A stretch of DNA of 64,000 nucleotides from Arenicola marina (lineage: Eukaryota > Annelida > Polychaeta > Arenicolidae). The position numbers and the translations under genes were made by a program. The stretch is from contig OZ025258.1 of the NCBI GenBank assembly GCA_964019135.1, forward strand, positions 35,358,126-35,422,125, read 5' to 3'. Positions within the stretch are counted from its first letter, which is position 1. Each line of letters starts with the position of its first letter. The notes under the pieces are model-generated. The model ran no database searches. It saw only the letters and a program-made list of their open reading frames with translations, and was not told the origin of the DNA. This document shows positions 6,626 through 58,059 of the stretch, piece by piece.

Positions 6626-7396
6626 ATTCGGCCTCTGATCAGAAAACATTGGCTGAATACGTGATGCACGAGGAGAAGGGTTCACTCGGTGATGAAATTG
6701 CCACAGGGGTTCTTCAAGCGGACGAAAACAGAGCCAGCAATCGCTTTTTGTTTGTTGCCACATCGAGTCATTACAACCCAAGAGGGTTCGTGTCTCTTTG
6801 ATCGGATACGTTGAATTAGATCTTGCCGTTCCAAACGATAACACCGACATCAAATCAGGGTATTACGACTGGCTAGGTGCCGTCGTCGGAACATTTTGAT
6901 TTTTCTCATTTAGCGGTACATACCACCTCTACACTAGACGATCCTCTATTTATTAACGTTGATGAAAAAATTACAAGCGTTTGTTGGCCCTTTGGAGCAA
7001 GAAACAGGTTCCTCATCCAAGGCTAATATACCCTTTATATCGATGTAACAAGTGACATATAAACAAATTTGCGGCCTTGTAACCGTGTCTGATAGTCTGG
7101 GAAGTATGCTTTTGTTCTTCTCGGAAGTTTGATCCATGAACGGCATTATACGGCATTGTCAAGCGTTCTAAACGCGTTTTGCGATCGTCTGTTGATCCTC
7201 AGTATAACTTACTTTCGTGAACCTAGTTGAAACGTTAATGTGCGGTATTGACGGGTGATCCGCTGTTTGAAAAACATTCAAGCCCACTCCAACGGTTGAA
7301 GATATCTCACTCCTCGGAACGATTTGTATGGCCTTAAATCATACGGGTCATATTGTGACGACTATTTTGTCATGTGTTGGCATTACCATAACATTC
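6626..7396. other. No recognisable feature
   Basis: Single-copy non-coding sequence up to the ATTC that flanks the fold-back element. Confidence 0.45.
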
Positions 7397-7432
7397 GTAC
7401 GGAGCCCCGCTAGGGACATTCAGAATTATTTT

Positions 7433-7975
7433 TTATCTCGTTCGCACGAGATAGTATCTCATTCGCACGACATAGTATCTCATTCGCACGACATGGTATC
7501 TCGTCCGCAGGACATAGCATCTCGTTCGCACGACTTAGTATCTCGTTCGCACGACATAGTATCTTGTTCGCACGACATAGCATCTCGTTCATACGACTTA
7601 GTATCTCGTTCGCACGAGATAGTATCTCGTTCGCACGACTTAGTATCTCGTTCGCACGACAGTATCTCGTTCGCACGACATAGCATCTCGTTCGCACGAC
7701 ATAGTATCTCGTTCGCACGAGATAGCATCTCGTTCGCACGACATAGCATCTCGTTCGCACGACATAGCATCTCGTTCGCACGACTTAGTATCTCGTTCGC
7801 ACGAGATAGTATCTCGTTCGCACGACATAGTATCTCGTTCGCTAGAGATAGTATATCGTTCCCACGAGATAGCATCTCGTTCCCACGAGATAGCATCTCG
7901 TTCTCACGACATAGCATCTCGTTCGCACGACTTAGTATCTCGTTCGCACGACATAGTATCTCGTTCGCACGAGGG
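7433..7975 (+). repeat. 21-bp satellite, left arm of the fold-back element
   Basis: About 25 units of a 21-bp repeat (ATCTCGTTCGCACGACATAG plus one base). Variants alternate between CGACATAGT, CGAGATAGT and CGACTTAGT. Each unit carries ATCTCG and CGAGAT-type short palindromes. All frames stay open on both strands because 21 is divisible by 3. Confidence 0.9.
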
Positions 7976-7976
7976 G

Positions 7977-8253
7977 GCGTGGGAAGGGGCACTACATAGT
8001 AAGCACGACATGTCTATAGTGGTGGGGTTGTGCCGCCCGTGCCATAGTGGGCATATATGGAGAACTAGAGAAAGTGCGAGATTTCGTGGTCCTCGAGAGA
8101 GAATTTGTTGTTAAAAAAGGCATAAAAATAAACACTGACAGCTATGACAAGGTATATGGATCCGTGGAGGTTAATTTCGGTATCAACTGGATATCCAGTC
8201 ATATGGGCGGCACATGTGTATATAGCTAACCATAGGTTCGCCCCCCCCCCCCC
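7977..8253 (+). mobile_element. GC-ended MITE family X, copy 2, at the fold-back centre
   Basis: The left end GGGGCACTACATAG leads to GTTGTGCCGCCC. The right end GGGCGGCACATGTGTATATA leads to GGTTCG and a 12-C run. The interior matches copy 1 at 'gtggtcctcgagagagaat'. The right terminus and the first satellite units are duplicated at 8,337-8,410. Confidence 0.7.
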
Positions 8254-8261
8254 TACCAAAG

Positions 8262-8766
8262 ATACTATGTCGTGCGAACGAGATACTATCTCGTGCGAAC
8301 GAGATGCTATCTCGTGCGAACGAGATACTATCTCGGCACATGTGTATATAGCTAACCATAGGTTCGCCCCCCCCCCCCTACCAAAGATACTATGTCGTGC
8401 GAACGAGATGCTATCTCGTGCGAACGAGATACTATCTCGTGCGAACGAGATACTATGTCGTGCGAACGAGATACTATCTCGTGCGAACGAGATACTATGT
8501 CGTGCGAACGAGATACTATGTCGTGCGAACGAGATGCTATGTCGTGCGAACGAGATGCTATCTCGTGCGAACGAGATGCTATGTCGTGCGAACGAGATGC
8601 TATGTCGTGCGAACGAGATGCTATGTCGTGCGAACGAGATGCTATGTCGTGCGAACGAGATGCTATGTCGTACGAACGAGATACTATGTCGTGCGAACGA
8701 GATGCTATGTCGTGCGAACGAGATGCTATGTCGTGCGAACGAGATACTATTTCGTGCGAACGAGAT
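8262..8766 (-). repeat. 21-bp satellite, right arm (inverted orientation)
   Basis: About 23 units that are the reverse complement of the left-arm unit (TGTCGTGCGAACGAGATACTA). They are interrupted at 8,337-8,378 by a second copy of the family X right terminus and C-run. A direct duplication of about 125 bp (8,212 versus 8,337) explains this. Confidence 0.9.
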
Positions 8767-8804
8767 AAAAAATAATTCTGAATGTCCCTAGCGGGGCTCC
8801 GTAC

Positions 8805-11800
8805 ATTCGACATCGTATGTCGTGCTACATCTACAGATGAAACAATCAAGGGGACCTTCGTCCTGCTGTTAATGCTGGTAATGATGTAAAAATAAGGTGT
8901 GGAATATTACGATATTTCAATATTACAACTGTAACTAATCGTGTTACTAACATAATAGCTATACAGTGTTAGTTCTGCTTCTTATAAATGCACGGACGAA
9001 GTTGTTTAGCATAGTGACACAATATGCAGCTGATACAGCTTCAATCAATTATTTGTTTGTTTATATATGACCATTTATTGAACAGTTGAAAACATTGGTT
9101 CCTCTTTAACTAATATTTATTGTATCATTTAATACATAAGGTGTTTGATTATATATGCATTTACCCTACAGTACTGTTGCATCACTTCTACTGTGCTACT
9201 GTTCTACTGTTCTACTGTTACTTCAACACACAGTATTACACTATTACTATATTCTAGTTTTAGTTATTATGTACATCAGCCGCGGTGTGCTTCACCTGAT
9301 AGGAAAGCTTTATTGTACTGTAAAGGCCTTGGGCCCCGGAGTATATATCCAGCAATATACAAGTGAACAATACGGAAACAATGGTGGACAGATTGCATAT
9401 GGTCTTCATCAGTGTTTCTCCTTGTGTCTTAAGATGACAACCGGGAGTAAAACGAGCCACTCGCCAGCATCGACTCTCTGTCATCATGAAAACGGCGAAT
9501 AATGTTCGTGTTACAGTTTTTCCACGTTTATCTGAATGATGTGAGGCAGCCCAAGGCGGGTATTGGTTGGGGCGAGACAAGAGCAGCGTCACATAGTGGT
9601 AGAACAGATCATAAATGGGGCCAACCGGCCAGCAAACCCTCCCACAAGATGCGAGACGTAGGTTTGATTTGCATCCGTTTTCATTTTTTAAATTATGTCG
9701 TAACAAATGCAATGAATACCGTGAAGTTTTGTTCTTCAGATGGCGGAAATTTGAATCCCTGCCTTGGTCTCCGCATGTAAAACCATGTACGAGACTTTTA
9801 CGGGACGGACTTCCAGACCGGATGTGCTACTTCATTGCTACTGCGCCATACAGATGCAACTAAAACATAGAAGGAAGGGAACGATATATATATATATACA
9901 GAAAGAGAGAGAGAGAGAGAGAGAATAAGATATAGAGAGAGAGAGAGCGCGATAGGGAGTTAGATATAAAAAAGCGAATGAGAAGAATAAGTCATAAGAA
10001 GCTGGACAGATAACGAGAGGTCCGCTCTCCCCCCCCCCTTGTGATTTGTGGTTCTGATTCCCAAGCTGACAGATTTACCACTATACTTCATAATACGCAT
10101 ACGCACGAATTATTATCAACAACTTTTATGAGTTTTTTTTTGTATGCGTTGTCCGAGGTATTTTCACCGAATCAAACCCGTAAGTTTCGTACCTTCTTTC
10201 ATGTGGGCATGTCGTATGTTGAAATACCACGAGACCGAGGCTAGTTTGATGGGGGAAAGAATTACAGCCATGTATGGCAGGAACGTCAAATAAAATGCTT
10301 ATTGAAGGTTAAAAAATAAATTTACCCTTTTCAAAAGGTCACGCACGGCGTAGTGGCAAGCCTAAATGCACAAACAAGATACATATCAACAAGCAGATTT
10401 AAGAACAAATCGTGAATATGAAATTACGATTACAGGGATGGCGGGTGGGAAAAAGTAAAACACTGATTATCGCGGATTGAAATGAAACAGGAAAATGAAA
10501 ACGTCTTCCTTGTTCTGACACTGACTGGAAACGAGAAGAGCTGATCTCCGATTGGTTGATACAGCATGTATGACTAAAAAGCGTGAGACATATAATTCGA
10601 TCGTGCAGAAATAACACGATAATCGACTTCCCCACATAAATACATTTTAACGTGGCAAAAGCTCCTTTTATGTAACCATGGGAAAAGATGGAAGAGTCAT
10701 TGTTCCTAAACTGACAATGTTAGATTTACAACTACACTTAATAATACACACGATTTAACAACAACATTTATCTTATCTTATTGTACGCATTGTGTGTACC
10801 CAACCAAGCTTGTTTTTGTACATAGCTTGGTTTTTGCGACCACGGGAGAAGATGTCATGAGGCTGGGGTAAATGTGGTGTAGGACAAATGCAACCAGCCA
10901 CAAATATAGCATCGAAGATAGTAGCAGTTTTAAGTATAACACATAAAACATGAAATAAATATAATGTTATTAACAGCACATTTCACCCCAGCCCAATAGA
11001 TTTACGTTGAATGGTGCAATGATACAATAGAGTGCCACAATTCATTCTGTATGCATACCGGTTTATCTTGATAATTTGATAACTTATACCACCATAACTT
11101 TGACGCGTCATAAACAACTTACCAGTACCAGGTACATATAGTGCATCGTGCATCGTGCATCGTAACGCAATTGTTTATTCTGTCGTTCTCTATCCACAGC
11201 TTTTCTTGCATCCAAACAGTCGATAATGCTTTGGTTTATATAATAACTAAGACGTGGAACACGTGGTTTTTTTTCATGTTGTTATTTTCTGTTTCCATTA
11301 ATTAAAAACATTTGCTCATAGGCCCATCTGATAAAGAAGCAAAACGCACAGTCACCACGCCCACATTGGTTTGCAGGCATTGCTAACTTCTGCTAGTTCT
11401 TTAGAACCTTGTGTATTTTCGCAAAGTTCTATAGATACTACGAATAAAATGCATTATTATTCATATAAATAAAATATGATAATAATTTATGTAATATTAC
11501 CATTGGCTGCAGTATCCTGGTAGAAATATAGGAGTTTGGCTGAGTGCCACGAACCGCCGTGGCCTTTCAAGAGAACTAATGGTGGTCAGGCGATATATTG
11601 TGTAATTTCTCCATGGTGAGATCCTCTTTGCGGGTGGGATTAAAACGACTTTCGTATTCGATGGCGACGTTAATGCTGCAAACCGCAGCGCATGAGACCT
11701 TTCAGCGGAGCGAGCGAAGTGTCCGTTTACGAGAGAGGCATTTTGCCCATGACACGATGCAGAGTCAGCCATATTACAGGAGCTGTTTAGGTTTTTTACC

Positions 11801-18432: not shown

Positions 18433-18651
18433 AGGGCCCCTGAGGGGGGGGGGGGGGGGTAGCCATGTCGCGTGTCGATTTTAAGAAAAGGTCAATGTCG
18501 TGTGTGGATTTTAAGAAAAGGTCCATGTCGCGTGTCGATTTGAAGAAAAGTTCACTATGTCGCATGTCGATTCTAAGACAACCCCAATGTCGCGTTGTCG
18601 ATTTTAAAAATCGCCGTGTCGCCGTGTCGAAAAAAGCCCCCCTGGGGCCCT
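18433..18651 (+). mobile_element. MITE family Y, copy 1, with 6-bp target duplication
   Basis: The termini AGGGCCCC and GGGGCCCT are perfect 8-bp inverted repeats, extended imperfectly by G-rich/C-rich sequence. The target site ACGGTA is duplicated at 18,427-18,432 and 18,652-18,657. The interior holds a long G-run and then about five units of an approximately 30-bp repeat (ATGTCGCGTGTCGATTTTAA plus about 10 bp). The second copy is at 51,432. Confidence 0.9.
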
Positions 18652-20410: not shown

Positions 20411-21120
20411 ATGCAGCAACTAAGGCGAAGATCACCAAGAAACGCTAAACCAATCGAGTGACGCGTGGCACTAGTACTGAGGACAATATTACTGGAATGA
20501 TGGATAAGAAATCGATATTCTTGAGAAGTGCGCAAGGCAAATAACTACGACAAGCTTATCAATCATCTCTCTCTTAAGATGGTGAAAAATGTCTTTATCA
20601 TTATTTTAAAGTTTCATTTGTCCTGTAAGCCGTTGTATTATGCTCGACTTGGATAATAAAGATCGCCATTTTTTCGGAGCGATCTAGGTCTACCGTTGCC
20701 TTTCACTTGACCCCCTCCCCCACCACCACACACATCGAGGCAAGGATAGCGTGCCATGAATATATTTGCAATTTGTGTGCTCTGAACGTTTAGAAATCAA
20801 ATAGGTTAATTAGAACTTTAGCCAGATAAAATATCACATACCATAATAACTGTATATAATCTATTACCGTTTGAAGGATCGTCTACATATTTTCATGGAT
20901 TCTAATTATTGTGAGACTTTCCATGCGAGACGCGGAAAGGGTTCTTTTTTTCTATCGAGAAACCCTAACTAGTGAACCAGAAAACACGGCATGACATCGA
21001 TGTGATGACTGTCAGTTTCAGATTGGCATTTCTCATCCGTGAGCGCAACTGTCAAAACAATACTTAAGTTACAACAACATAATCTACAATTACATCGCAT
21101 TACGCAGACAGGCGGCAAGG
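20411..21120. other. No recognisable feature
   Basis: Single-copy sequence between the LINE 5' truncation point and the SINE. Confidence 0.4.
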
Positions 21121-21610
21121 AAATGAGACCGCTTTTGTGCCCACAAGAGCTAACCTGGGCCTCCCAAACGTGGTCCAATGAAACATTACCCAGTAGTATG
21201 TGGCCCAAGGCCCGGAATCGAACCAAGGACTTATTGATGTAGTTAGTGCGTTAAGCACTACGCCATCTAGTTAGGGCGTTAACCTCTACGCCATCTAGAT
21301 AGGGCGTTAACCACTATGCCATCTAGATAGGGCGTTAACCACTATGCCATCTAGTTAGTGCGTTAAGCATTACGATATCTAGTTAGTGCGTTAACCACCA
21401 TGCCATCTAGTTAGTGCGTTTACCACTATGCCATCTAGTTAGTGCGTTAACCACTATACCATCTAGTTAGGGCGTTAACCACTATGCCATCTAGTTAATG
21501 CGTTGAGCATTACGATATCTAGAAAGTGCGTTAACCAATATGCCATCTAGTCAGGGCGTTAACCACTACGCCATCTAGTTAGTGCGCTAACAAATACACC
21601 AGGGAGGCCA
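21121..21610 (-). mobile_element. tRNA-derived SINE with tandemly expanded A-box region
   Basis: The body (CTTTTGTGCCCACAAGAGCT) and the B box (minus strand GGTTCGATTCC, 21,200-21,213) match the SINE at 4,077. The expected 5' end of the head (minus strand GGCCTCCCTGGTGTA) appears only at 21,595-21,610. The interval is filled by about 13 copies of a 28-bp unit derived from the A-box segment. Confidence 0.8.
21240..21597 (-). repeat. 28-bp tandem array of SINE A-box units
   Basis: About 13 units. On the minus strand each unit reads AGATGGCATAGTGGTTAACG and then CACTAACT. This contains TGGCATAGTGG, a near-consensus RNA polymerase III A box. Units vary at a few positions (TTAGG/TTAGTG, ACTATG/ACTACG). 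Confidence 0.9.
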
Positions 21611-21650
21611 GTTGCCAACCAGCCACAAACATAAACATAGAAGCAATGAT

Positions 21651-22437
21651 TGGCTATGTAATACTAGGTCATGGCAGGGCAGTAGGTATCGAGGCTATGT
21701 TATACTAGGTCATGGAAGGATAGTAGGTCTCTAAGCTATGCAATACTAGGTCATGGAAGGCAGTAGGTCTCGAGGCTATGTTATACTAGGTCATGGAAGG
21801 GCAGTAGGTCTCGAGGCTATGTAATACTAGGTCATGGAAAGGCAGTAGGTCTCGAGGCTATGTAATACTAGGTCATGGAAAGGGCAGTAGGTCTCGAGGC
21901 TATGTTATACTAGGTCATGGAAGGGCAGTAGGTCTCGAGGCTATGTAATACTAGGTCATGGGAGGATAGTAGGTCTCGAGGCTATGTAATACTAGGTCAT
22001 GGAAAGGCAGTAGGTCTCGAGGCTATGTAATACTAGGTCATGGAAGGGGCAGTAGGTCTCGAGGCTATGTTATACTAGGTCATGGCAGGGCAGTAGGTAT
22101 CGAGGCTATGTTATACTAGGTCATGGAAGGATAGTAGGTCTCTAAGCTATGTAATACTAGGTCATGGAAGACAGTAGGTATCGAGGCTATGTAATACTAG
22201 GTCATGGAAAGGGCAGTAGGTCTCGAGGCTATGTAATACTAGGTCATGGAAAGGGCAGTAGGTCTCGAGGCTATGTTATACTAGGTCATGGAAGGGCAGT
22301 AGGTCTCGAGGCTATGTAATACTAGGTCATGGAAAGGCAGTAGGTCTCGAGGCTATGTAATACTAGGTCATGGAAGGGCAGTAGGTCTCGAGGCTATGTA
22401 ATACTAGGTCATGGAAGGGCAGTAGGCCTCGAGGCGC
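21651..22437. repeat. 41-43-bp minisatellite
   Basis: About 19 units containing GGCTATGTAATACTAGGTCA and then TGGAA, a GGGCAGTAGG block and TCTCGA. Length differences come from the G-run before CAGTAGG. Blocks of several units recur (compare 21,651-21,760 with 22,067-22,180), indicating higher-order duplication. Confidence 0.9.
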
Positions 22438-23544
22438 GGCGCCCACGTAAGATGAACAAGGTCGCGGATGTGGGGCTTCGCGCACGTGCCACGAACGGGA
22501 GTGCATCCATTATCACGGTTTAATGGGTTCCACAAAGGCGTCGGCCATGGCGAATCCTGTAACCCGGACACCCGATGAGTGTACCACGTGACCACGACCA
22601 TGATGGATGACCCTGAACAACGTTGTGAAATCAAGGGGCCGGGGGTGGGGAGGGTGGGGGGTCATCCATTACGTATCTGTAGGACATCGACCACGGAGAT
22701 CGCCACACCCTAATTGCCTGAGACAATGTCCCATATCCCATTTTTCGGAGAGGATCTAGAGGTAAAGGCAGCTTGGTGTATGGAATGTGTTATATGGTGA
22801 TGCGTGGGGTGCTCTGAGCAGAGGTTGCAATAGCAAGGTACATTTTTGTGCGTTTGTTTGTTTGTTTGTTTGTTTCGGTACAGAGTTTGCAATGTAATAT
22901 TTAAATCAAATGAACCCATATATCAGGATGACTACAAAAGACTTCGTGCATGAATCACGACGTTTCTAACAATAGTTTGAGCTTTAATGTAAAAAATAAT
23001 CTCATTCAGACATAAAATACTGCGTAGTTAGTACTCGAAAGATGTTAAAATCAATTTGATGCATCAAACGGATGATACCACTGGACGGCAGTTGATGTGA
23101 CGAAGCAGTTGTGGTGCAGAATGAGCCCCGTTGTAACAAGCATGATGACAGACCCTTTATAGAGTTTATAGCATCACCCCCACCCTTTCCTTCAAACATT
23201 ACCTTTTATAACGTGTTTAACCAGTGGATATATTACAATGATGACACATTATCCACATACAGTCGAGAAACAGAAAAGATAGTCATGTGGGTGAAATGAT
23301 CGTGCATCCACCTTCACTGGAGTCAGGAAAAAAACATATGGCTGTCTATACATAATTCTGGAATTTTTGGAATAGAAATGAGTATTCGTGTCGATTGCTT
23401 TGTACTAATTAATTATATTTAAACAAATAATAAAAAATCTGAATACGAGATTCCATTTTCAGCGTTTTGATAATTGAACGCAAAAGACACGAACGAATAC
23501 ATTTTCTTATGCCCAGGTCACGATAAAATAAAAAGGATAACTCC
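22438..23544. other. No recognisable feature
   Basis: Contains a short GTTT microsatellite (22,855-22,876) and a G-rich tract at 22,640-22,660. No gene is seen. Confidence 0.45.
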
Positions 23545-23959: not shown

Positions 23960-25640
23960 TGCATTTTCCTACCACCACTGCCACCACTGCTGCTACTGCT
24001 TCTACTGCCTCCACTGCCCACTACCTCCACTGCCGCCACTGCCTCCACTGTCTCCACTGCCTCCACTGCCTCCACTGTCTCCACTGCCTCCACTGTCTCC
24101 ACTGCCTCCACTGCCTCCACTGCCACCACTGCCACCACTGCCTCCACGGCCTCCACTGCCTCCGTTGCGTCCACTACCTCTACTGCCTCCACAGCCTCCC
24201 CTGCCGGCACGGCCTCCGCTGCCTCCACTGCCTTTATTGCCTCCACTGCCGCCACTGCCTCCTCTGCCTCCACTGTCTCCACTGCCCACTACATCCACTG
24301 CCATCATTGCCTCCACTACCTCCACTGCCTCCTCCACTGCCTCCACTGCCTTCACTGCCTCCACTGCCACCACTGCCACCACTGCCTCCACGACCTCCAC
24401 TGCCTCCGTTGCGTCCGCTACCTCTACTGCCTCCACAGCCTCCCCTGCCGGCACGGCCTCCACTGCCTCCACTGCCTTTATTGCCTCCACTGCCTCCACT
24501 GCCTCCACTGCCTCCACTGCCGGCACGGCCTCCACTGCCTCCACTGCCTTCACTGCCTCCACGGCCTCCACTGCCTCCACGGCCTCTAGTGCTTCCACTT
24601 CCGCCACTGCCGCCACTGCCTCCACTGTGTCCACTGCCTCCACTGCCGTCGCTGCTGCCCCTACCGCCACGGCCTCCACTGCCTCCATGGCCTCCACTGC
24701 CTCCACTGCCTACACTGCCTACACTGCCTTCACTGCCTCCAACGCCACCACTGCCACCACTGCAACCACTGCCTCTACGGCCTCCACTGCCTCCGTTGCT
24801 TCCACTACTTCTATGCCTCCACAGCCTCCACTGCCGGTACTGTCTCCACTGCCTCCAATGCCTCCACTACCTCCACTGCCTTCACTGCCTTTACTGCCTT
24901 CACTGCCACCACTGCCACCACTGCCTCCACGGCCTCCACTGCCTGCACTGCCGCCACTGCCTCCATTGAGTCCACTGCTTTCATTGCCTTAACTGCCTCT
25001 ACTCTCTACTCTCTCTACTGCCTTCACTGCCGCCACTGTCTCCACTGCCTCCACTGCCGCCACTGGCTCCACGGCCTCCACTGCCTCCACGGCCTCCACT
25101 GTGTTCACTGCCGCCGCTGCCTCCATTGAGTCCACTGCTTTCATTGCCTTAACTGCCTCTACGCTCTCTACTCTCTCCACTGCTTCCACTGCCGCCACTG
25201 GCTCCACTGCCTCCACTGCCTCCACTGTCGCCACTGTTGTCACTACCACTACGGCCTCCACTGATTCCACTGCCTCCGCCGCCTCCACTGCATCCACTGC
25301 CTCAACTGCCGCCACTGCCTCCACTGGCCACTACATCCACTGCCACTACTGCCACCACTGCCTCCACGGCCTCCATTGTGTCCACTGCTTCTACTGCCTC
25401 CACTGCCTCCACAGTCTACACTTCCGCCACTGCCTCCACTCTCTCTACTGCCTCCACTGCCCCCATTGCCTCCACTGTGTCCACTGCCGCCACTGTCTCC
25501 ACTGCCGCCACAGCTCCCACTGCCTACACTGCCGCCACTGCCTCCCCTGCCTCCACTGCCTTTACTGTCGCCCCTATCGCAACGGCCTCCACTGCCTGCA
25601 CTGCCTGCACTGCCTGCACTGCCTGCACTGTCTCCACTCC
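23960..25640. repeat. 9-bp CTGCCTCCA satellite with higher-order repeats
   Basis: About 1.7 kb built on the nonamer ACTGCCTCC and variants (ACTGCCACC, ACGGCCTCC, ACTGTCTCC). Marker variants such as TCCGTTGCGTCC recur 244 bp apart (24,161 and 24,405). TCCATTGAGTCCACTGC recurs about 160 bp apart (24,963 and 25,123). All six frames are open for hundreds of codons because 9 is a multiple of 3. The resulting proteins (polyCys-His-Leu, polyPro-Leu, Ala-Ser-Thr) are not credible. Confidence 0.9.
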
Positions 25641-27112: not shown

Positions 27113-28830
27113 GTGGTGGTGGACGAAGTGTACGGTGACGTGTTGTGAAGCCGTGCCATCAGTGTACGGTGACGTGTTGTGAAGCCGTGCCATCAGTGTA
27201 CGGTGACGTGTTGTGAAGCCGTGCCATCAGTGTACGGTGACGTGTTGTGAAGCCGTGCCATCAGTGTACGGTGACGTGTTGTGAAGCCGTGCCATCAGTG
27301 TACGGTGACGTGTTGTGAAGCCGTGCCATCAGTGTACGGTGACGTGTTGTGAAGCCGTGCCATCAGTGTACGGTGACGTGTTGTGACGCCGTGCCATCAG
27401 TGTACGGTGACGTGTTGTGAAGCCGTGCCATCAGTGTACGGTGACGTGTTGTGAAGCCGTGCCATCAGTGTACGGTGACGTGTTGTGAAGCCGTGCCATC
27501 AGTGTACGGTGACGTGTTGTGAAGCCGTGCCATCAGTGTACGGTGACGTGTTGTGAAGCCGTGCCATCAGTGTACGGTGACGTGTTGTGAAGCCGTGCCA
27601 TCAGTGTACGGTGACGTGTTGTGAAGCCGTGCCATCAGTGTACGGTGACGTGTTGTGAAGCCGTGCCATCAGTGTACGGTGACGTGTTGTGAAGCCGTGC
27701 CATCAGTGTACGGTGACGTGTTGTGAAGCCGTGCCATCAGTGTACGGTGACGTGTTGTGAAGCCGTGCCATGTGGTGGACGAAGTGTACGGTGACGTGTT
27801 GTGAAGCCGTGCCATCAGTGTACGGTGACGTGTTGTGAAGCCGTGCCATCAGTATACGGTGACGTGTTGTGAAGCCGTGCCATCAGTGTACGGTGACGTG
27901 TTGTGAAGCCGTGCCATCAGTGTACGGTGACGTGTTGTGAAGCCGTGCCATCAGTGTACGGTGACGTGTTGTGAAGCCGTGCCATGTGGTGGACGAAGTG
28001 TACGGTGACGTGTTGTGAAGCCGTGCCATCAGTGTACGGTGACGTGTTGTGAAGCCGTGCCATCAGTATACGGTGACGTGTTGTGAAGCCGTGCCATCAG
28101 TGTACGGTGACGTGTTGTGAAGCCGTGCCATCAGTGTACGGTGACGTGTTGTGAAGCCGTGCCATCAGTGTACGGTGACGTGTTGTGAAGCCGTGCCATC
28201 AGTGTACGGTGACGTGTTGTGAAGCCGTGCCATCAGTGTACGGTGACGTGTTGTGAAGCCGTGCCATCAGTGTACGGTGACGTGTTGTGAAGCCGTGCCA
28301 TCAGTGTACGGTGACGTGTTGTGAAGCCGTGCCATCAGTGTACGGTGACGTGTTGTGAAGCCGTGCCATCAGTGTACGGTGACGTGTTGTGAAGCCGTGC
28401 CATCAGTGTACGGTGACGTGTTGTGAAGCCGTGCCATCAGTGTACGGTGACGTGTTGTGAAGCCGTGCCATGTGGTGGACGAAGTGTACGGTGACGTGTT
28501 GTGAAGCCGTGCCATGTGGTGGACGAAGTGTACGGTGACGTGTTGTGAAGCCGTGCCATGTGGTAGACGAAGTGTACGGTGACGTGTTGTGAAGCCGTGC
28601 CATGTGGTGGACGAAGTGTACGGTGACGTGTTGTGAAGCCGTGCCATGTGGTGGACGAAGTGTACGGTGACGTGTTGTGAAGCCGTGCCATCAGTGTACG
28701 GTGACGTGTTGTGAAGCCGTGCCATCAGTGTACGGTGACGTGTTGTGAAGCCGTGCCATCAGTGTACGGTGACGTGTTGTGAAGCCGTGCCATCAGTGTA
28801 CGGTGACGTGTTGTGACGCCGTGCCATCAG
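27113..28830. repeat. 34-bp satellite with 44-bp variant units, highly homogeneous
   Basis: About 50 units. The core unit is CAGTGTACGGTGACGTGTTG followed by TGAAGCCGTGCCAT. A 44-bp variant replaces CA with GTGGTGGACGAA. The array begins with a variant unit, and such units recur at 27,772, 27,985 and in a cluster at 28,471-28,660. Most units are identical; rare marks are GACGCC for GAAGCC (27,385 and 28,815) and GTATACGG (27,853 and 28,066). Confidence 0.95.
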
Positions 28831-29114
28831 TGCGATGGGGATAGAGTTCCGTCATCGCTATTAATGATTCCATATGAAGCTACGGTCTGCAGCGAGTACA
28901 GGAAGGCGACAGGGGCACCGATTAAATTCTGTAAATATATAACCGACATTTGATACTTACATAATTTCGATTTTTATCTTTCTCCTTTTTCCCAAAGCAC
29001 TTAAAAAGTTCTCACATAAGCAGGCATTAGTATTTAAATTACTTCTCGGTACGCATGGGTTCTTTAGACCATCAGTGTGTTAAAGGGCCTCCACCACGGT
29101 GAATTAAAGGGAAC

Positions 29115-33420: not shown

Positions 33421-36400
33421 ATTATCGCAAAGCACGCACTGACTCGGCGAGAAGCACGCACTGATTAGGCGTGGAGCACGCACTGACTGCCGCGGCGTGA
33501 AACACGCACTGCCGCGGCGTGAAGCCCTCAATACTCAAAAAAAAATTATCGCAAAGCACGCACTGACTCGGCGAGAAGCACGCACTGATTAGGCGTGGAG
33601 CACGCACTGACTGCCGCGGCGTGAAACACGCACTGCCGCGGCGTGAAGCACTCAATACTCACTGACTCGGCGTGAAGCACGCACTGACTCGGCGTGAAGC
33701 ATGCACTGACTTGGCGTCAAGCACGCACTGACTCGGCGTGAAGCACGCACTGACTCGGCGTGAAGCATGCACTGACTTGGCGTCAAGCACGCACTGACTC
33801 GGCGTGAAGCACGCACTGACTCGGCGTCAAGCACGCACTGACTCGGCGTGAAGCACGCACTGACTTGGCGTCAAGCACGCACTGACTCGGCGTGAAGCAC
33901 GCACTGACTCGGCGTCAAGCACGCACTGACTCGGCGTCAAGCACGCACTGACTCGGCGTCAAGCACGCACTGACTCGGCGTGCAGGAAGGAAAAGACTGA
34001 CTCGGCGTCAAGCATGCACTGACGGCGTGAAGCACGCACTGACTCTGCGTCAAGCACGCACTGACTCTGCGTCAAGCACGCACTGACTCGGCGTGAAGCA
34101 CGCACTGACTCGGCGTGAAGCATGCACTGACTTGGCGTCAAGCACGCACTGACTCGGCGTGAAGCACGCACTGACTCGGCGTGAAGCATGCACTGACTTG
34201 GCGTCAAGCACGCACTGACTCGGCGTGAAGCACGCACTGACTCGGCGTGAAGCATGCACTGACTTGGCGTCAAGCACGCACTGACTCGGCGTGAAGCACG
34301 CACTGACTCGGCGTGAAGCATGCACTGACTTGGCGTCAAGCACGCACTGACTCGGCGTGAAGCACGCACTGACTCGGCGTGAAGCATGCACTGACTTGGC
34401 GTCAAGCATGCACTGACTCGGCGTCAAGCACGCACTGACTCGGCGTCAAGCACGCACTGACTCGGCGAGCAGGAAGGAAAAGACTGACTCAGCGTCAAGC
34501 ATGCACTGACGGCGTGAAGCACGCACTGACTCGGCGTCAAGCACGCACTGACTCGGCGTAAAGCACGCACTGACTCGGCGTCAAGCACGCACTGACTCGG
34601 CGTGAAGCATCCACTGACGGCGTGAAGCACTCACAGACTCGGCGTAAAGCACGCCCTGACTCGGCGTGAAGCACGCACTGACTCGGCGTGAAGCACGCAC
34701 TGACTCGGCGTCAAGCACGCACTGACTCGGCGTGAAGCATCCACTGACGGCGTGAAGCACTCACTGACGGCATGAAGCACGTACGGACTTGGCGTGAAGC
34801 ACGCACTGACTCGGCGTAAAGCATCCACTGACTCGGCGTGAAGAATCCACTGACGGCCTGAAGCACGCACTGACTCGGCTTGAAGCACTCACTGACGGCG
34901 TGAAGCACGCACAGACTCGGCGTGAAGCACGCCCTGACTCGGCGTGAAGCACGCACTGACTCGGCTTGAAACACGCACTGACTCTGCGTGTAGCATCCGC
35001 TGACGGCTTGAAGCACGCACTGACTCGGCGGGGAGCACGCACTGACTCGGCGTGAAGGACGCACTGACTCGGCTTGAAGCACTCACTGACATTGTGAAGC
35101 ACACACTGACTCGGCGTGAAGCACCCACTGACTCGGCGTGAAGCACGCACTGACTCGGCTTGAAGCACTCACTGACAGTGTGAAGCACACACTGACTCGG
35201 CGTGAAGCACGCACTGACTCGGCGTGAAGCACGCACTGACTCGGCTTGAAGCACTCACTGACAGTGTGAAGCACACACTGACTCGGCGTAAAGCATCCAC
35301 TGGCGGCGTGAAGCACGCATTCACTCGGTGTGAAGTACGCAATCACTCGCTGTGAAGCACGCAGTCACTCGGCGAGAAGCACGCACTGACTCCGCGTGAA
35401 GTACTCACTGACTCGGCGTGAAGCACGCACTGACTCGGCGTGAAGCATGCATTGACTCGGCGTGAAGCACGCACTGACTCGGCGTGAAGCACGCACTGAC
35501 TCGGCGTGAAATACTCACTGACTCGGCGTGAAGCATGGATTGACTCGGCGTGAAGCACGCACTGACTCGGCGTGAAGCACGCACTGACTTGGAGTGAAGC
35601 ACGCACTGACTCGGCGTAAAGCACGCACTGACTCGGCGTGAAGCACGCACTGACTCGGCGTGAAGCACGCACTGACTCGGAGTGAAGTACGCACTGACTC
35701 GGCTTGAAACACGCACTGACTCGACGTGAAGCATCCACTGACTCGGCGTGAAGCACTCACTGACTCTGCGTGTAGCATCCACTGATTCGGCGTGAAGCAC
35801 TCACTGACTCTGCGTGTAGCATCCGCTGACGGCTTGAAGCACGCACTGACTCGGCGTGAAGCACGCACTGACTCGGCGTGAAGGACGCACTGACTCGGCT
35901 TGAAGCACTCACTGACAGTGTGAAGCACACACTGACTCGGCGTGAAGCACCCACTGACTCGGCGTGAAGCACGCACTGACTCGGCTTGAAGCACTCACTG
36001 ACAGTGTGAAGCACACACTGACTCGGCGTGAAGCACGCACTGACTCGGCGTGAAGCACGCACTGACTCGGCTTGAAGCACTCACTGACAGTGTGAAGCAC
36101 ACACTGACTCGGCGTAAAGCATCCACTGGCGGCGTGAAGCACGCAATCACTCGGTGTGAAGTACGCAATCACTCGCTGTGAAGCACGCAGTGACTCGGCG
36201 AGAAGCACGCACTGACTCCGCGTGAAGTACTCACTGACTCGGCATAAGGTACGCACTGACTCGGCGTGAAGCACGCACTGACTCGGCGTGAAGCACGCAC
36301 TTACTCGGCGTGAAGCACGCACTGACTCGGCGTGAAGCACGCACGGACTCGGCGTGAAGCACGCACTGACTCGGCGTGAAGCACGCACTGACTCGGCGTG

Positions 36401-36755
36401 AAGCACGCACTGACTCGGCGTGAAGCACGCACTGACTCGGAGTGAAGTACTCACTGACTTGGCGTGAGGCACTCACTGACTCGGCTTGAAGCACGCACTG
36501 ACTCGGCGTGAAGCACGCACTGACTCGGCGTGAAACATGCATTGACTCAGCGTGAAGCACGCACTGACTCGGCGTGAAGCATCCACTGACTCCGCGTGAA
36601 GCACGCACTTACTCGGCGTGAAGCACGCACTGACTCGGCGTGAAGCACGCACTGACTCGGCGTGAAGCACGCACTTACTCGGCGTGAAGCACGCACTGAC
36701 TCGGCGTGAAGCACGCACGGACTCTGCGTGAAGCACGAACTGACTCGGCGTGAGC
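33421..36755. repeat. 22-bp satellite with higher-order structure, preceded by poly(A)
   Basis: About 150 units of a 22-bp repeat (ACTCGGCGTGAAGCACGCAC plus TG) follow a run of about 27 A at 33,394. The first 240 bp are two copies of a roughly 124-bp composite starting ATTATCGCAAAGCACGCACT. A block with GCAGGAAGGAAAAGACTGAC recurs about 485 bp apart (33,983 and 34,468). A block of several hundred bp recurs 826 bp apart (34,983 versus 35,809). The long minus-strand frames have a 22-residue period caused by the 66-bp triple unit. Confidence 0.95.
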
Positions 36756-48088: not shown

Positions 48089-51000
48089 ATGGCTGAGGGA
48101 GCACCCCAGACGGACCCCACCTCACAGGAAGAGGCGACAGATAGCACACAGGAGGAAGCCTCGACAGAACCCGTCATACCAGGAGCAGCTGAGGAGGAGC
48201 AAGACATGGAACAAAACAGCGGGACTGATCCAGAAGAAAGACCATCCAGCGTCCAGGATCAGGAAGCTGATGGTGGCCAGGCGGAGGAACAGCAGGTGTC
48301 GCCTTCCGGAAGCCACCACCGGTTAGATCCTGACGAAGCTGACGACGATGCCAGTGTCCCTCAGCCGCCAGCGCCTGATGGGCCACACAGTCCGGAGCAG
48401 TCTCTGGGCAGAGCTCCCGGCTTCGCACCCGGCGGCCTCGATGACGATGCCAGTGTCCCTCAGCCGCCAGCGCCTGATGGGCCACACAGTCCGGAGCAGT
48501 CTCTGGGCAGAGCTCCCGGCTTCGCACCCGGCGGCCTCGATGACGATGCCAGTGTCCCTCAGCCGCCATCGCCTGATGGGCCACACAGTCCGGAGCAGTC
48601 TCTCGGCAGAGCTCTCGGCTTCGCATCCGGCGGCCTCGATGACGAGCTCCCTCCCGTGCCCAGCGCACCCCCTGGCGAGTGGGAGGAGTCTTACGGCAGG
48701 GCCCCGGCGCCGCCTCCCGTGGCACCCAGCCCAACCAATGGGCGCTCCTCATCCACGCCACCCCCTCCCCCGGCCACCGCCGTCATCCAGCAGGAGCCTT
48801 CCGCCCCCCCGCTCCCCCCACCCGTGCCGGGGTCGCCCCGACCCACACCCCGGGAGTCCCAAGGGGACAAGGTCTCGCCAAACGCTCTGGTGGGTGAAAT
48901 AAATATCATTACCTATTACACCATAACTATTAATATTTATGTTTTAAAGACTTGCGAATCTAGGTCAACTGTCATACCTTGAAAGTGTCCACCAATTAGG
49001 CCGCCAGGCTGGTGAGTGATTGGTGTATTCATAATACTAGTGGCTATATAACATATAAATGGTCACTATTTGCATGTATGGGTATAACGAGACAGGCTTA
49101 GTGAATCAAATTTCTATATACTCGCATTGAAATTCACCACGGAACCACGGAACGACCACACACACACACATATAGATAGGTGCATGACCTCATACAAGAA
49201 TGCCACCACATTTGTCCCCGTGCCTGTTGCTTCAGAATCTGTCGTGGTCGTTCGGCACCAATCGTCACGTGCCGGTCCTCAACCTGAGCGACGAGACGCG
49301 CCAGCTCGTGGCCTACACGTGCGCTCACACCGGCGTCCTCTACGACTTCGCCAACAACACGCAGACCCTCCTCCAAGGACACGTGAGTTAAGAGGGGGAT
49401 CACGGGGGGCGTACCGTAGCGCGATCAACACAAAATGATCGATTTTGATCGCGATACGGTGCGAACCTGGGGTGGGCAGTAACAGAATTTAAGCCGTGAC
49501 TTATATCCCGGAAAATATGCTATATCATTTTTCTTTAAGGCAAGTTATACTAAATTGTCTATGAGTGATATATTAATTTTTTTATGTTATGAGTTTAATA
49601 TTGTGTACAATGCGTTGCTGGTAACACACTCAAAGCTTTTCCACACAACACTACATCATTTCTAATTATGTTCGTTAAAATGCATATGATGCATGGGTCA
49701 GTTTTCCGCCCCTATCCGACATGTTTTGACTGATGAATGGCACGATACCAACTTTATTACGCTGCAAGTGTAGTTAAAACCCAGTGAGGTAAAATGGTAC
49801 TGACGTGTCCCCTATTATCGCCTTGCCGTGCAGGTCAATGTCATTGGAAGCATGTGTGTGAGTGACGACAAACGGTGGCTGACCACGGCCGACGCCGGCC
49901 CCGATCACATGATCATAGTGTGGGACACCCTCACAGGGTGAGTATGGGGGGGGGTCACAGGATCATAGTGTGGAACACCCTCACAGGGTGGGTATGGGGG
50001 GGTCACATGATCATAGTGTGGGACACCCTCACCGGCTGAGTATGGGGGGAGGGAGTGTGTATGTGGGGGTACGGGGTGGGGGTCAGTGACGACAAACGGT
50101 GGCTGACCACGGCCCTGATCACATGACCATAGTGTGGGACACCCACACCGGGTAAGTATTGGGGGGGAAGGTGTTTGGGGGTACGGGGGTGGGGGTCAAT
50201 CGGTAACAACCAAGTGCCGGATTCCAAGCAACAGGTTTGAAACGGTTTCAGATATAGGTAGTGGGATGGCATGTCACGGAGAATATAAAGTACGCGCAAT
50301 GATAACCGCCATTTAAATTTTGTTTAATTTGAGTCATTCAATGTAACCGTTATTGTATTCTTCGCCATTACGCTGTTGTGTATAAAGAGATAATGATAAC
50401 ATAACAACATAGTACACATAATAATAACATAGCACAATAACATAGTGACAACATACTAACACCAACACGCTTATGTTAAGAAATGCGTCTTGTGGATGCT
50501 ACCGTGGCGGTCAGACCAAGCAGACATCGCTGATCATACTGCCTCCTATATTAACTTCAGCATGCCGGTCCGCACGATTTTCGAGCCCCACCCGGAGGGA
50601 GGGGTCGTTGCCGTGACAATGACCCCTGACGCTAAGTACCTGGCGTCTCTCAGCGGTGACGAGTCACAAGTAAGTGCAATATTCATATTCACGGAAACCG
50701 ATTAGATAATGACGTGGTTGATTAGATAATGACGTGGTTGATTAGATAATGACGTGGTTGATTAGATAATGACGTGGATGATTAGATAATGACGTGGTTG
50801 ATTAGATAATGACGTGGTTGATTAGATAATGACGTGGTTGATTAGATAATGACGTGGTTGATTAGATAATGACGTGGTTGATTTCAGATGGTTGCGTGCG
50901 GTGCTAATCAGGCGGAGCTTCCTCCTGCTCTGGATAACTTCACTATTCTCATGCCACGGCTAGACCATGTTTCTCCGTATTCTCATGTCTGGCCTTTGGC

Positions 51001-54000
51001 GTTGTTTGTCTGCTAGAAAGCATCTTTCTCCTTCCTCAGACCCTGGCGATCTGGGATTGGACTGTTGAGGTTGATAACCCGATGTGCACCACTAGTCTGG
51101 ACGCGAAATACGGAGGGCAGGTAGGACCTGTATGTCTGTGTGTCGAGGGGGAGATTGGTTATACGGCGGCTAGGACTGGATCGAGCTATAAGTAGAACAG
51201 TGGTGTGTTAGACCACTTCTGTGCCCATGAAGATTAAATTCGGTGAAGAAACCGTTACAACCAGACTTGTTTGCATGCAGCTTTGAACCCACGGCTCGTG
51301 TTTGCTTTTAGTATATGGTTGTCTGAAGTGTCAAACGCTTTGGCAATGTTCATTCAATGTAAAAGTTACACAAACATTTAAACCTGACAATGAATTCTGA
51401 ATATCTGCATGTAACGCTGAAGCCTTAATGTAGGGCCCCTGAGGGGGGGGGGGGGGTTGCCATGTCGCGTGTCGATTTTAAGAAACGGTCCATGTCGTGT
51501 GTCGATTTTAAGAAAAGTTCCATGTCGCGTGTCGCTAAGTCTTATGTTGCATGTCGATTCTAAGACAACCCCAATGTCGCGTTGTCGATTTTAAAAATCG
51601 CCGTGTCGCCGTGTCGAAAAAGCCCCTATGGGGCCCTTAATGTGTGATAATGCAGATGGATTCATTGATCCAAAGAAATGCCTATCGCTGTAGTGACAAT
51701 GTCTCTGCCATATGGTAGTGTATCGGTGAGGTAAACTAATTAGCGGCTCATCACTATACCTGAACGTTTGGCCGAACTACCCCATCAACTTCCCTAATAT
51801 TACCTTATTATTGAGATATCGCATCATAAGATCATACATTTAGATATCTCGTAATTCCTCTTTCAGCGATACATATTGTTTAACCCGGAGGATGTGACGC
51901 AATTGGTCACCAACAGCGACCATCAAGTTATATTTTATTCTTGGGTAAGTGTAATCACTGGCTGGAGTCTCCACCCATCGTATTGTAACGCACATGTCGG
52001 GATGTCAACCGACCAACAATTTGGTTTGTTTGTAAAAGATCATATAGACTGTACAACTCGCACTATGCCGTCACAAACAACGGGACATACCATAATATAC
52101 CCGTTACAGACTTTACAGACTAGTTGAATAAATATGTAAAATAATAGCCTCCCGCAGCTGTTTTCATTGTTGTTTTGGTACCTCATATCTGAAATATAAT
52201 TACTTGCGCATTCATTTTGGAGGATTAAATCCTGTTGACAGAGTCTTTGTGAAGTATAATTTTTATATATAAAATAGACAATCGTAAGAGATAGAGAATA
52301 GCTAGTTACCTCACTCGTGGTTTGGCAAACTATATATTGTTCACTTAACTTCATGTAAGTAAGTTTATTTCGTATAGAAGGCCATCAGGCCCATAGTACA
52401 TACAGAGTTACATAAATATTTCGGTCTAATCGGATATATACAATTTAAATTTTTATTGAAATTTTAGTCGCCCTTTGCTTGGTGCAACCTTTGTGCCTTA
52501 TATAAGTAAATTGATAAATTCTTGCTTATCGTTTGGACTTCATCAATTTAGCGAACATTTATTTATTTATTACTTTATGTACCAAGGTAATTTTGGTCTC
52601 TGTGCAGAAAGACGACCAGCTCTCCCACTTCGCTCCTTCACTGACGGACGATGACTTCAACAAGCCAGTCGGCATCTACAGCCAGTCTATCTTCGTCAGG
52701 AACTCCACGCGCGCCTTAACCGCCACGTCGCTAGGCAACCTGGTTGTGTGGGCGACCAACAAACCTTTGACCAAAGGTAATACCATTTAGTACATGTTTA
52801 GAATAGGTTTACGTTTTATATTATAGTTTATGATATCGATGAAAGCTGTCCAGGACGGTAACTTGATTCAATCTGCGTGTTGTCAACTAACATGTTGACA
52901 ACTTGTAACGTAGCCACCTCTAGTCCATCCCATTTGGCCGCATGTATAATCGGCTAACATTTACAGTAAATAATATGCTACATACAAGTCATTTCCTATC
53001 CTCTAGCTGTAGCTAAAGAGGAATTGAGACAAAAGGTTCTATATTATGTGGCCCCCCCCCCCCACACACACACCATGAATATAGGTATGGACACGAAGGC
53101 TGCGGCAGACAAGAAGGCCCTGAAGCTGGTCAGGCTGCAGGAGCGGAGCATCCACGTCCTAACCACCACCGAGAGGTAAGTCCCCCTACAATAAAGCCTC
53201 CATTGTCCTTATTGTGCCATTAGTATGGCTTTTCACACATGTAACATCCTATATCATCATTAATGTGAAGTAACCACTATTATCTCATATATATATAACT
53301 CGATCAGACGCCAGGCGAACTATCAATGTCAATGGCTTTATGATCACAAACCGTTTGTTATTCTTATTCTGTTACTCGTATTGTTTTTTTTCATCCTTGT
53401 TGTTATTTTCGCTGAGTAAGGTGTGTTGTGTATGGGATAAATGCGGTGTAACTCTGGCTAATCTGTGTGTATTTCCTCCCAGATTCATTGTTGTTGGGGA
53501 TTCCGTCGGGCACGTCAAGTTCTTCGACCTCACCCTCAAGTTAGCCAATTGGTAAGCCATGCTCCCTTAAGCGTCTCATTGCCCCCTAGTCGTAGCTTGT
53601 ATTATGTTTATAAGTACATCAATATTGAGTTACTCTAACCTTTATCTTCAACGTATTAATTCCCCACAGGAAAAAACAACTTCTGCGCTTAACGAGTAGC
53701 ATTTAATTATACCGATTTTGATTTTGATGAAGATTTCATCTGTAGATAATATTGATAATACCACCTAAAAATCTAAAGCAAGAAGCAGACACGAGACTAA
53801 ATATAGTTACAAAATCATCATCGTTGTGTTTTAATTTGTATGGCGTTTTTGGAAAATTTATGTTATTGCAATCTATGTTCTGTCATTAATTGGTTGTTTA
53901 CGGGTGAGGTAATCGTTGTATTACAGGTACCAGGATTTCCACCTTGGCCCCATTTCTTCGGTGTCCTTCGCGTACTACCCGAGTTTCAACACCGAGTGAG

Positions 54001-57000: not shown

Positions 57001-57790
57001 GTCGAGATAGGAGTCGTAGCCACTTGTCAACATAAACCATCGTTTGTTGTCGTGTTCACCCTATGGAACAATACAACATTAGGCGATAAAGCGCCGGTGA
57101 AACACAGTCAAATCCAATATGCCCTCGGTTCTCTATACGACCCTTGTATTGAAAGTCCCTGATTATTTACTTGGTTGTTACAGGTTTGGGTTACACCAAT
57201 GGCATGGTGAGACTGGTGGACGCCATCACACTGACTGACCTTCAAGATGACCCCTTCCGCTACGCGAGGGACGCCATCACGGACATCGTCTTTTCGCACG
57301 ACTCCCAGTACCTGGCTACAGCGGTGAGTGACGTCATTATTTGACCTCTGATTTCTCGTGCTTTATCGCTGATTTTAATGTCAAGGTGCATGTAATATAT
57401 ATGACGTGTCAGACTCCCTAATAGAATAAAACATTTTGCTTTATTTATATTCAGGTACGCCTTGTGTGAATGCCATTATCAGTGAAAAAACATACCGCGA
57501 AGAGCCTTGAAATTTTATCATTCTAATCCTTCTCTTAGCCCCTCCACGTCTCAGAGTGTTTTTTCCCCACACCCACCCACCATCCTCCCTCCCACCCCTG
57601 CACACATATATTTCTGTATGCCCCGCAGGACGGCGAGTTCACGGTGTCGGCGTTCCGGAGACAGGGGGGGTCCTATGTCCACATGGGGCGCCACAGAGCT
57701 CACTACAAGAAGATCCAGAACCTCATGTTCGGGATCAACCTGGATAACCCCACACCTCGTCTGCTCTCTCTCGGCGAGGACAGGCATTTG
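48089..57790 (+). CDS. CFAP251: Cilia- and flagella-associated protein 251 (WD-repeat protein 66), 3'-incomplete
   Basis: Sixteen exons join in frame (782 codons) with GT/AG borders: 48089-48889, 49236-49382, 49834-49937, 50561-50669, 51040-51120, 51867-51944, 52608-52776, 53085-53175, 53483-53551, 53927-53995, 54557-54686, 55243-55298, 55776-55835, 56769-56848, 57184-57323, 57629-57790. Residues 1-267 (exon 1) are acidic, Pro-rich and disordered, like the low-complexity N-terminus of WDR66. From residue 268, WD blades appear: LSWSFGTNRHVPVLNL, SMCVSDDKRWLTTADAGPD, MIIVWDT, DAKYLASLSGDE, LAIWDW, GNLVVWAT, GHVKFFDL, LAVGSYSGFLQMWDY. The pattern 'FG.N..VPV.NL', 'LQGH', 'ADAGPD..IIVWD' fits CFAP251. 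In known species this protein belongs to the calmodulin- and spoke-associated complex of the axoneme. The start is the first ATG after an acceptor-like TGTAG. The exon 11 donor (GTCATT) is weak. The C-terminal exons lie beyond the window. Confidence 0.9.
48341..48637 (+). repeat. CFAP251: 99-bp coding tandem repeat in CFAP251 exon 1
   Basis: Three consecutive 99-bp (33-residue) units start at 48,341, 48,440 and 48,539. Each encodes DDDASVPQPP(A/S)PDGPHSPEQ and then SLGRA and an approximately 8-residue Gly-rich end. Units 1 and 2 are nearly identical at DNA level; unit 3 has several changes. A degenerate fourth unit (DDELPPVPSAPP) follows. All are in frame. Confidence 0.95.
49957..50155 (+). 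pseudogene. Decoy copies of the CFAP251 exon 3 end in intron 3
   Basis: The last part of exon 3 and its donor (GATCATAGTGTGGGACACCC, then TCACAGG and GTGAGTATGGGG) is copied three more times. Copies 1 and 2 lie at about 49,957-49,998 and 50,003-50,046 and carry donor-like GTGGGTATG and CTGAGTATG. Copy 3 at 50,083-50,158 is longer. It starts at AGTGACGACAAACGGTGGCT and ends with a strong GTAAGTATT. A net 10-bp loss in copy 3 shifts the frame into a TGA. Confidence 0.9.
50703..50885. repeat. 20-bp minisatellite in CFAP251 intron 4
   Basis: Nine nearly identical copies of ATTAGATAATGACGTGGTTG, one with GGATG. It begins about 35 bp after the exon 4 donor. Confidence 0.95.
51205..51300 (-). mobile_element. 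SINE fragment in CFAP251 intron 5
   Basis: Aligns with the SINE at 4,077-4,262 over 'gttag.ccacttctgtgccca' and 'taaattcggtgaagaaacc'. A B-box-like minus-strand GGGTTCAAAGC is present. The head is truncated. Confidence 0.6.
51432..51637 (+). mobile_element. MITE family Y, copy 2, in CFAP251 intron 5, with 6-bp target duplication
   Basis: Termini AGGGCCCC and GGGGCCCT. Target TAATGT is duplicated at 51,426-51,431 and 51,638-51,643. Internal G-run and 30-bp ATGTCGCGTGTCGATTTTAA-type repeats. It is highly similar to 18,433-18,651, especially over the right 100 bp. Confidence 0.9.
52345..52420 (-). mobile_element. LINE 3'-end-like fragment in CFAP251 intron 6
   Basis: AAGTTTATTTCGTATAGAAG followed by GCCATCAGGCCCATAGTACA resembles the LINE 3' terminal region at 18,958-18,985 (GAGTTTATTGTGC and GGCCCACAG). 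Too short for a family assignment. Confidence 0.45.
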
Positions 57791-58059
57791 GTACGTATAG
57801 GTTACACACCTATAGATTGTGCGTCAAATAGTATACAATATATTACCTCAAATATTGTTTCGTATATCACAGTTATATGCTTATCAGTTGCGTATTTCTG
57901 AGTGTGGACCGATTTTTAAATCTATGATTTTCGTCTTATGTCGATGTGTTCGGTTTGTTTGTCTGCGTGTGTGCGTCTGCCTGTCTTGTCACTCATTATC
58001 TGTCGAATGCCGTAAGAGCAAATTTACAAAATGATGCGGAATGGACATCGTACAGGCTA
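57791..58059 (+). other. Start of the large CFAP251 intron 16
   Basis: After the exon 16 donor (GTACGT) the sequence is non-coding and contains no repeat that I recognise until R4 begins at about 58,060. Confidence 0.6.

Follow-up and report, generated by a model that had tools for sequence, protein, structure and literature searches.

In the excerpts of published accounts drawn on here, the Tm1 Mutator/Foldback elements of root-knot nematodes carry inverted arms made of a variable number of 13-15 bp tandem units, occur in MITE-like forms with a 1,080-bp member among others, and have a transposase that groups with Mutator/Phantom (PMC3169594). Galileo, of the P superfamily, is described there as having long inverted arms, inside which tandem repeats contain extra transposase binding sites (PMC3688188), and Tetris of Drosophila virilis as a foldback element with a flanking domain, a tandem-repeat domain, and a variable middle, whose repeats gave rise to satellite DNA (PMC4079207). 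Of the superfamilies treated in these excerpts, IS3EU has TA...TA ends together with target duplications that are usually 6 bp long, those of MuDR/IS256 being 4-10 bp and those of Polinton 6 bp (PMC10045372), and Dada elements are characterized as being without terminal inverted repeats and as inserting in small RNA genes (PMC3706591).

Within a 64-kb window, the whole stretch of DNA that was analysed, we found a 1,406-bp element that we interpret, with a probability of about 0.8, as a non-autonomous DNA transposon of the fold-back type whose arms consist of tandem repeats. Its inverted arms of a short tandem unit and its MITE-like form recall Tm1, although Tm1 has asymmetric 7-bp end motifs in place of the perfect 52-bp ends seen here (PMC3169594). 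Galileo is likened to the element by architecture and differs in its P-type transposase and in its repeats of more than 1 kb (PMC3688188), whereas Tetris, which shares the foldback layout, is built from repeats of about 220 bp (PMC4079207). The target duplication proposed here, 6 bp, compares with 9 bp in Tm1, 8-10 bp in Tetris, and 4-10 bp in MuDR/IS256 (PMC3169594, PMC4079207, PMC10045372), and in combination with TA...TA ends it is shared with IS3EU/GingerRoot, a comparison at superfamily level for an element in which no transposase was seen (PMC10045372). The literature searched yielded no report of a fold-back form of IS3EU/GingerRoot, nor of the sequence words of the present element. Tandem-repeat MITEs of bivalves (Donax, pearl) are likewise MITE-like elements with a tandem array. 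These bivalve elements reportedly have one array in one orientation, as against the inverted arms found here.

Methods

Candidate mobile elements were sought in a blind scan of the window for inverted repeats 8 bp or longer, spaced 80-3000 bp apart and with direct repeats of 6 bp or more outside them. Tandem arrays other than those of the fold-back element were masked, ends with fewer than three kinds of letter were skipped, and the scan was repeated on 20 dinucleotide shuffles. Flanking inverted repeats were scored for 21 tandem arrays picked from 52 TRF rows and for 60 random placements; the AGGGCCCC elements reported below, with their short ends, escaped this test, and their coordinates come from a free end search. 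In the self-comparison of the window, the first list left out matches inside two tandem arrays, and matches to the fold-back element were unfiltered.

Results

The element spans 7398-8803, and its inverted arms are long enough to pair across most of its length. It is bounded by inverted termini that are identical over 53 bp (7397-7449 and 8752-8804), or over 52 bp without the outermost G/C, in agreement with the uninterrupted inverted ends of about 50 bp reported by the initial annotation. The left terminal inverted repeat (7398-7449, plus strand) comprises a 37-bp terminus, TACGGAGCCCCGCTAGGGACATTCAGAATTATTTTTT, and the start of the first 21-bp unit, and its counterpart on the right (8752-8803, minus strand) matches it perfectly over the 52 bp. 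The left arm (7435-7972, plus strand) holds 25 complete units of ATCTCGTTCGCACGACATAGY, 24 of 21 bp and one of 19 bp, followed by a partial unit. The right arm (8260-8767, minus strand) is the same array inverted, with 21 units of 21 bp and partial units, and is broken by a second copy of the right end of the core (8334-8384, plus strand) that stems from a 125-bp tandem duplication. TRF places this direct duplication within 8208-8460 at 96% identity, as had been noted for the right arm from the sequence. The core itself (7973-8253, plus strand) is a shortened and diverged relative of an element at 613-2686.

One copy was seen. The 18-mer GTACGGAGCCCCGCTAGG, with up to three mismatches, matched the window twice, once per strand, against a mean of 0.02 in 100 shuffles, and neither this search nor the self-comparison found another copy of the element in the 64 kb. 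A 20-mer of the terminus had no match in viral contigs and a 27-base pattern of the unit none in viral and prokaryote contigs, collections that have little bearing on an animal-like genome. The first 11 bases of the terminus, TACGGAGCCCC, occur once more at 1399-1409 within the element 613-2686, followed there by CTAGCGGC, which may be chance.

The blind scan returned four hits in the window, the fold-back element first with its 52-bp termini, and each shuffle gave 0-2 hits with termini never longer than 9 bp. The element 613-2686 was missed by the scan because its G-run ends have fewer than three kinds of letter and were skipped. When flanking inverted repeats were scored, the fold-back element reached 60, whereas the other 20 arrays scored 7-15 (the 15 coming from a poly-C run) and the random placements at most 12.

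The initial annotation had described ATTC flanks as a 4-bp duplication. ATTC does flank the element on either side, but a symmetric reading extends at its longest to a 6-bp direct repeat, CATTCG (7392-7397 and 8804-8809, unstranded), around an element that begins and ends TACGG...CCGTA. A true 4-bp duplication, with GTAC ends, would require two chance matches (1 in 16 by our own reckoning), and the repeat extends by eye to 7 bp, ACATTCG, if asymmetric termini are allowed. A target duplication of 6 bp rather than 4 bp is thus the most likely reading of the flanks.

The two arms carry the same unit in opposite orientations. On the plus strand, the motif CGTTCGCACGA (at most one mismatch) has 23 matches, all of them in the left arm; on the minus strand it has 22, of which 21 lie in the right arm and one stands isolated at 46115. 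Apart from this single match, no likeness of the units to any other part of the window was found. Both arrays start in identical phase, 38 bases inward of 7397 and of 8804, behind the 37-bp terminus, and 21 of the 22 segments of the right arm are 21 bp long. Alignment of the left arm (7397-7972) with the inverted outer right arm (8385-8804), leaving out the interrupted inner part at 8260-8384, gave 392 identical bases of 418 (about 6% differ), whereas the left array aligned with its own reverse complement at 376 of 533; the inversion is therefore no by-product of the partial palindromy of the unit. The claim that the whole array is inverted, and not the ends alone, is upheld by both the strand split of the motif and the identity between the arms, and the broader description of a fold-back with inverted satellite arms, a MITE-like core, and a flanking direct repeat like a target-site duplication stands with it. 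A GAGAT variant of the unit can fold into a perfect short hairpin. Of the 135 CpG sites in the 45 units of 21 bp, 126 are intact and four show a C-to-T type change, so there is no sign of long methylation in the units.

The four commonest shared unit types occur in both arms, and a fifth common type (four units) is found in the left arm only. Mean unit distance was 1.79 between arms and 1.84 within them, a value reached by 1787 of 2000 permutations; since units are no further apart between arms than within, an independent origin of the arms is unsupported. For unit order, 25 left-arm segments were set against the 18 outermost of the 22 right-arm segments. At equal distance from the ends, two of 18 units matched, and 1843 of 2000 shuffles did as well; at the best offset eight of 18 matched, which 1133 of 2000 shuffles reached. 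We therefore reject the arms as recent mirror copies, and the earlier suggestion that they were copied from each other is, in any recent sense, unsupported: unit variants are common to both arms, but their order is not. The right arm is the more uniform (mean unit distance 1.1 vs 2.4 on the left). Likeness between adjacent units did not significantly exceed that in shuffled arms (471 of 2000 shuffles on the left, 224 of 2000 on the right) and so gives no sign that units were duplicated locally. The longest exact stretches are 54 bp within the left arm, 88 bp within the right arm, and 63 bp between the arms. These results could mean that both arms go back to one multi-unit ancestor and that each then turned over on its own, while the 52-bp ends stayed identical; sequence exchange between the two arms may also have taken place.

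Two segments of the core match the element 613-2686 on the same strand and in the same order: 8020-8157 matches 639-777 (76%, E 2e-11), and 8198-8253 matches 2627-2683 (83%, E 7e-6). Both counterparts sit near the two ends of 613-2686, and the inverted 10-mer TGTGCCGCCC lies near the ends of the core as well as of 613-2686, these four exact matches being all that the window contains. The positions of the matches and the common 10-mer identify the core as a short, diverged relative of 613-2686. Judged by this likeness, the middle of the fold-back element consists of the decayed remains of another mobile element, with inverted ends of its own (G-run and TGTGCCGCCC). The MITE core of the initial annotation is indeed MITE-like, but is better described as a relative of this second element with its own termini. 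No target duplication of the core was seen by eye at its junctions with the arrays; the core may have been inserted between the arms, or the arms may have formed around it. The larger element, 613-2686, is 2.07 kb long; its G-run ends read CCCGGGGGGG, and its duplication of 8 bp is GACAGACC. Two of its inner parts, 1844-2014 and 2159-2316, are found again in inverted orientation, at 58405-58233 and 58180-58019.

Tandem repeats abound in the window (52 TRF rows), with long arrays at 58583-64000 (47-bp unit), 33554-36753 (22 bp), 27127-28832 (34 bp), and 23975-25638 (9 bp). A MITE family with ends AGGGCCCC has copies at 18433-18651 (219 bp) and 51432-51637 (206 bp), flanked by the 6-bp duplications ACGGTA and TAATGT, and each copy contains a tandem array with a unit of about 30 bp. 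A possible further element at 20869-23197, with 10-bp ends GTTTGAAGGA and the direct repeat ATTACC, is borderline relative to shuffles and encloses the 28-bp and 41-bp tandem arrays. Coding traces include a frame resembling the ciliary protein CFAP251 (57539-57901, E 9e-8), which points to a ciliated eukaryote, and, by eye, a WD-repeat-like exon (49831-49938), whose end appears again at 49905-50049, in 2.9 copies of a 48-bp tandem repeat.

Discussion

The element at 7398-8803 most likely belongs to an old and known type, as a further, non-coding member of the fold-back elements with tandem-repeat arms. Movement would depend on a transposase supplied by another element, which may bind the TACGGAGCCCC termini, excise the element, and reinsert it by cuts staggered by 6 bp. 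The units, whose 21 bp span about two turns of the helix, may have expanded from subterminal sequence by slippage or unequal exchange. They may also act as accessory transposase binding sites; the tandem repeats of Galileo, which contain such extra sites, make a docking role of the 21-bp units plausible by analogy.

As to which enzyme this might be, the TACGG...CCGTA termini provide the TA...TA ends of IS3EU/GingerRoot, and CATTCG, in the one copy seen, provides a 6-bp target duplication. Together these features offer a lead towards an IS3EU/GingerRoot-type enzyme; the length of the duplication alone cannot decide the superfamily, given the ranges of MuDR/IS256 (4-10 bp) and Polinton (6 bp), and an enzyme of the Mutator type, the superfamily to which many fold-backs belong, is also conceivable. 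An independent origin, within the integrase-like IS3EU/GingerRoot lineage, of a fold-back architecture otherwise familiar in Mutator and P elements, in which each arm would offer the transposase over 20 docking sites in the form of the 21-bp dyad unit of two helical turns, is a tentative proposal that we hold to be rather unlikely. The Dada superfamily was also considered, and is ruled out by the 52-bp terminal inverted repeats; the window had no Rfam match at the gathering score and no tRNA.

A different account of why the arms are retained would make them a hairpin-RNA locus, the source of a long double-stranded transcript that is processed by Dicer into siRNAs. The plus strand as RNA is predicted to fold to -1009.5 kcal/mol, against a mean of -448 in 10 shuffles, with 462 of the 576 left-arm bases pairing with the right side, but this strength is expected of any fold-back DNA, and the fold energy is therefore not evidence of siRNA. 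The arms moreover lack positional homology, and no target is visible in the window, where the units match elsewhere only at 46115, so that we consider such a locus improbable.

Still harder to sustain is an inversion of satellite DNA without transposition, in which the core element broke a tandem array and one half was then inverted. The core does have mobile-element ends of its own, and the 125-bp duplication is visible rearrangement at the core; against this, the two arrays are in phase with each other from their first unit on, after identical 37-bp termini with a direct repeat outside, and the unit is absent from the window outside the element except for the match at 46115. An origin of this kind thus appears very improbable.

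Inverted duplications are a known long-read artefact, and a chimeric inverted read could in principle have generated two opposed arms. The inverted repeat, however, ends exactly at the ends of the element and does not run into the flanks, and the compared parts of the arms are about 6% apart and differ in unit order, which argues against an assembly fold-back and leaves only a slight chance of an assembly or sequencing artefact.

Stop-to-stop frames as long as 242 residues run through the arrays because the unit equals seven codons and is stop-free in those frames. Six frames across the element, of a longer list of arm frames, were scanned against Pfam; three exceeded the cut-off of PF21300 LbR_Ice_bind (39.4, 32.9, and 40.8 bits vs 30), and one that of PF11839 Alanine_zipper (23.5 vs 23.1). 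Both kinds of match are taken as effects of the 7-residue period and of composition. Frames at 7271-7999 and 8352-8906 carry a 7-residue repeat above the ice-binding beta-roll cut-off, probably as an effect of periodicity. No transposase family was among the Pfam matches of these six frames or of eight proteins including the core frame, and an autonomous partner was not seen either. A coding core was considered and set aside: its 69-residue plus-strand frame (found by eye) matched no Pfam family at E <=0.1 and no PDB chain better than E 0.52. That the arms form a gene for a 7-residue repeat protein, perhaps with an ice-binding-like beta roll, as the seven-codon unit, the long frames, and the three PF21300 scores might suggest, can be practically dismissed, since frames match PF21300 on both strands, as expected from any repeated stop-free unit, the 19-bp unit of the left arm breaks the frame, and the frames extend through the termini and core.

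Read as a non-autonomous fold-back transposon, the element is a clean case of satellite DNA within a transposon. If the link to IS3EU were true, fold-back elements would have arisen convergently in one more transposase lineage, and the case would lend weight to the view that the growth of arms is driven by the repetition of binding sites. The AGGGCCCC family, with two copies and 6-bp duplications, also carries a tandem array, and such elements may therefore help to disperse tandem repeats in this genome.
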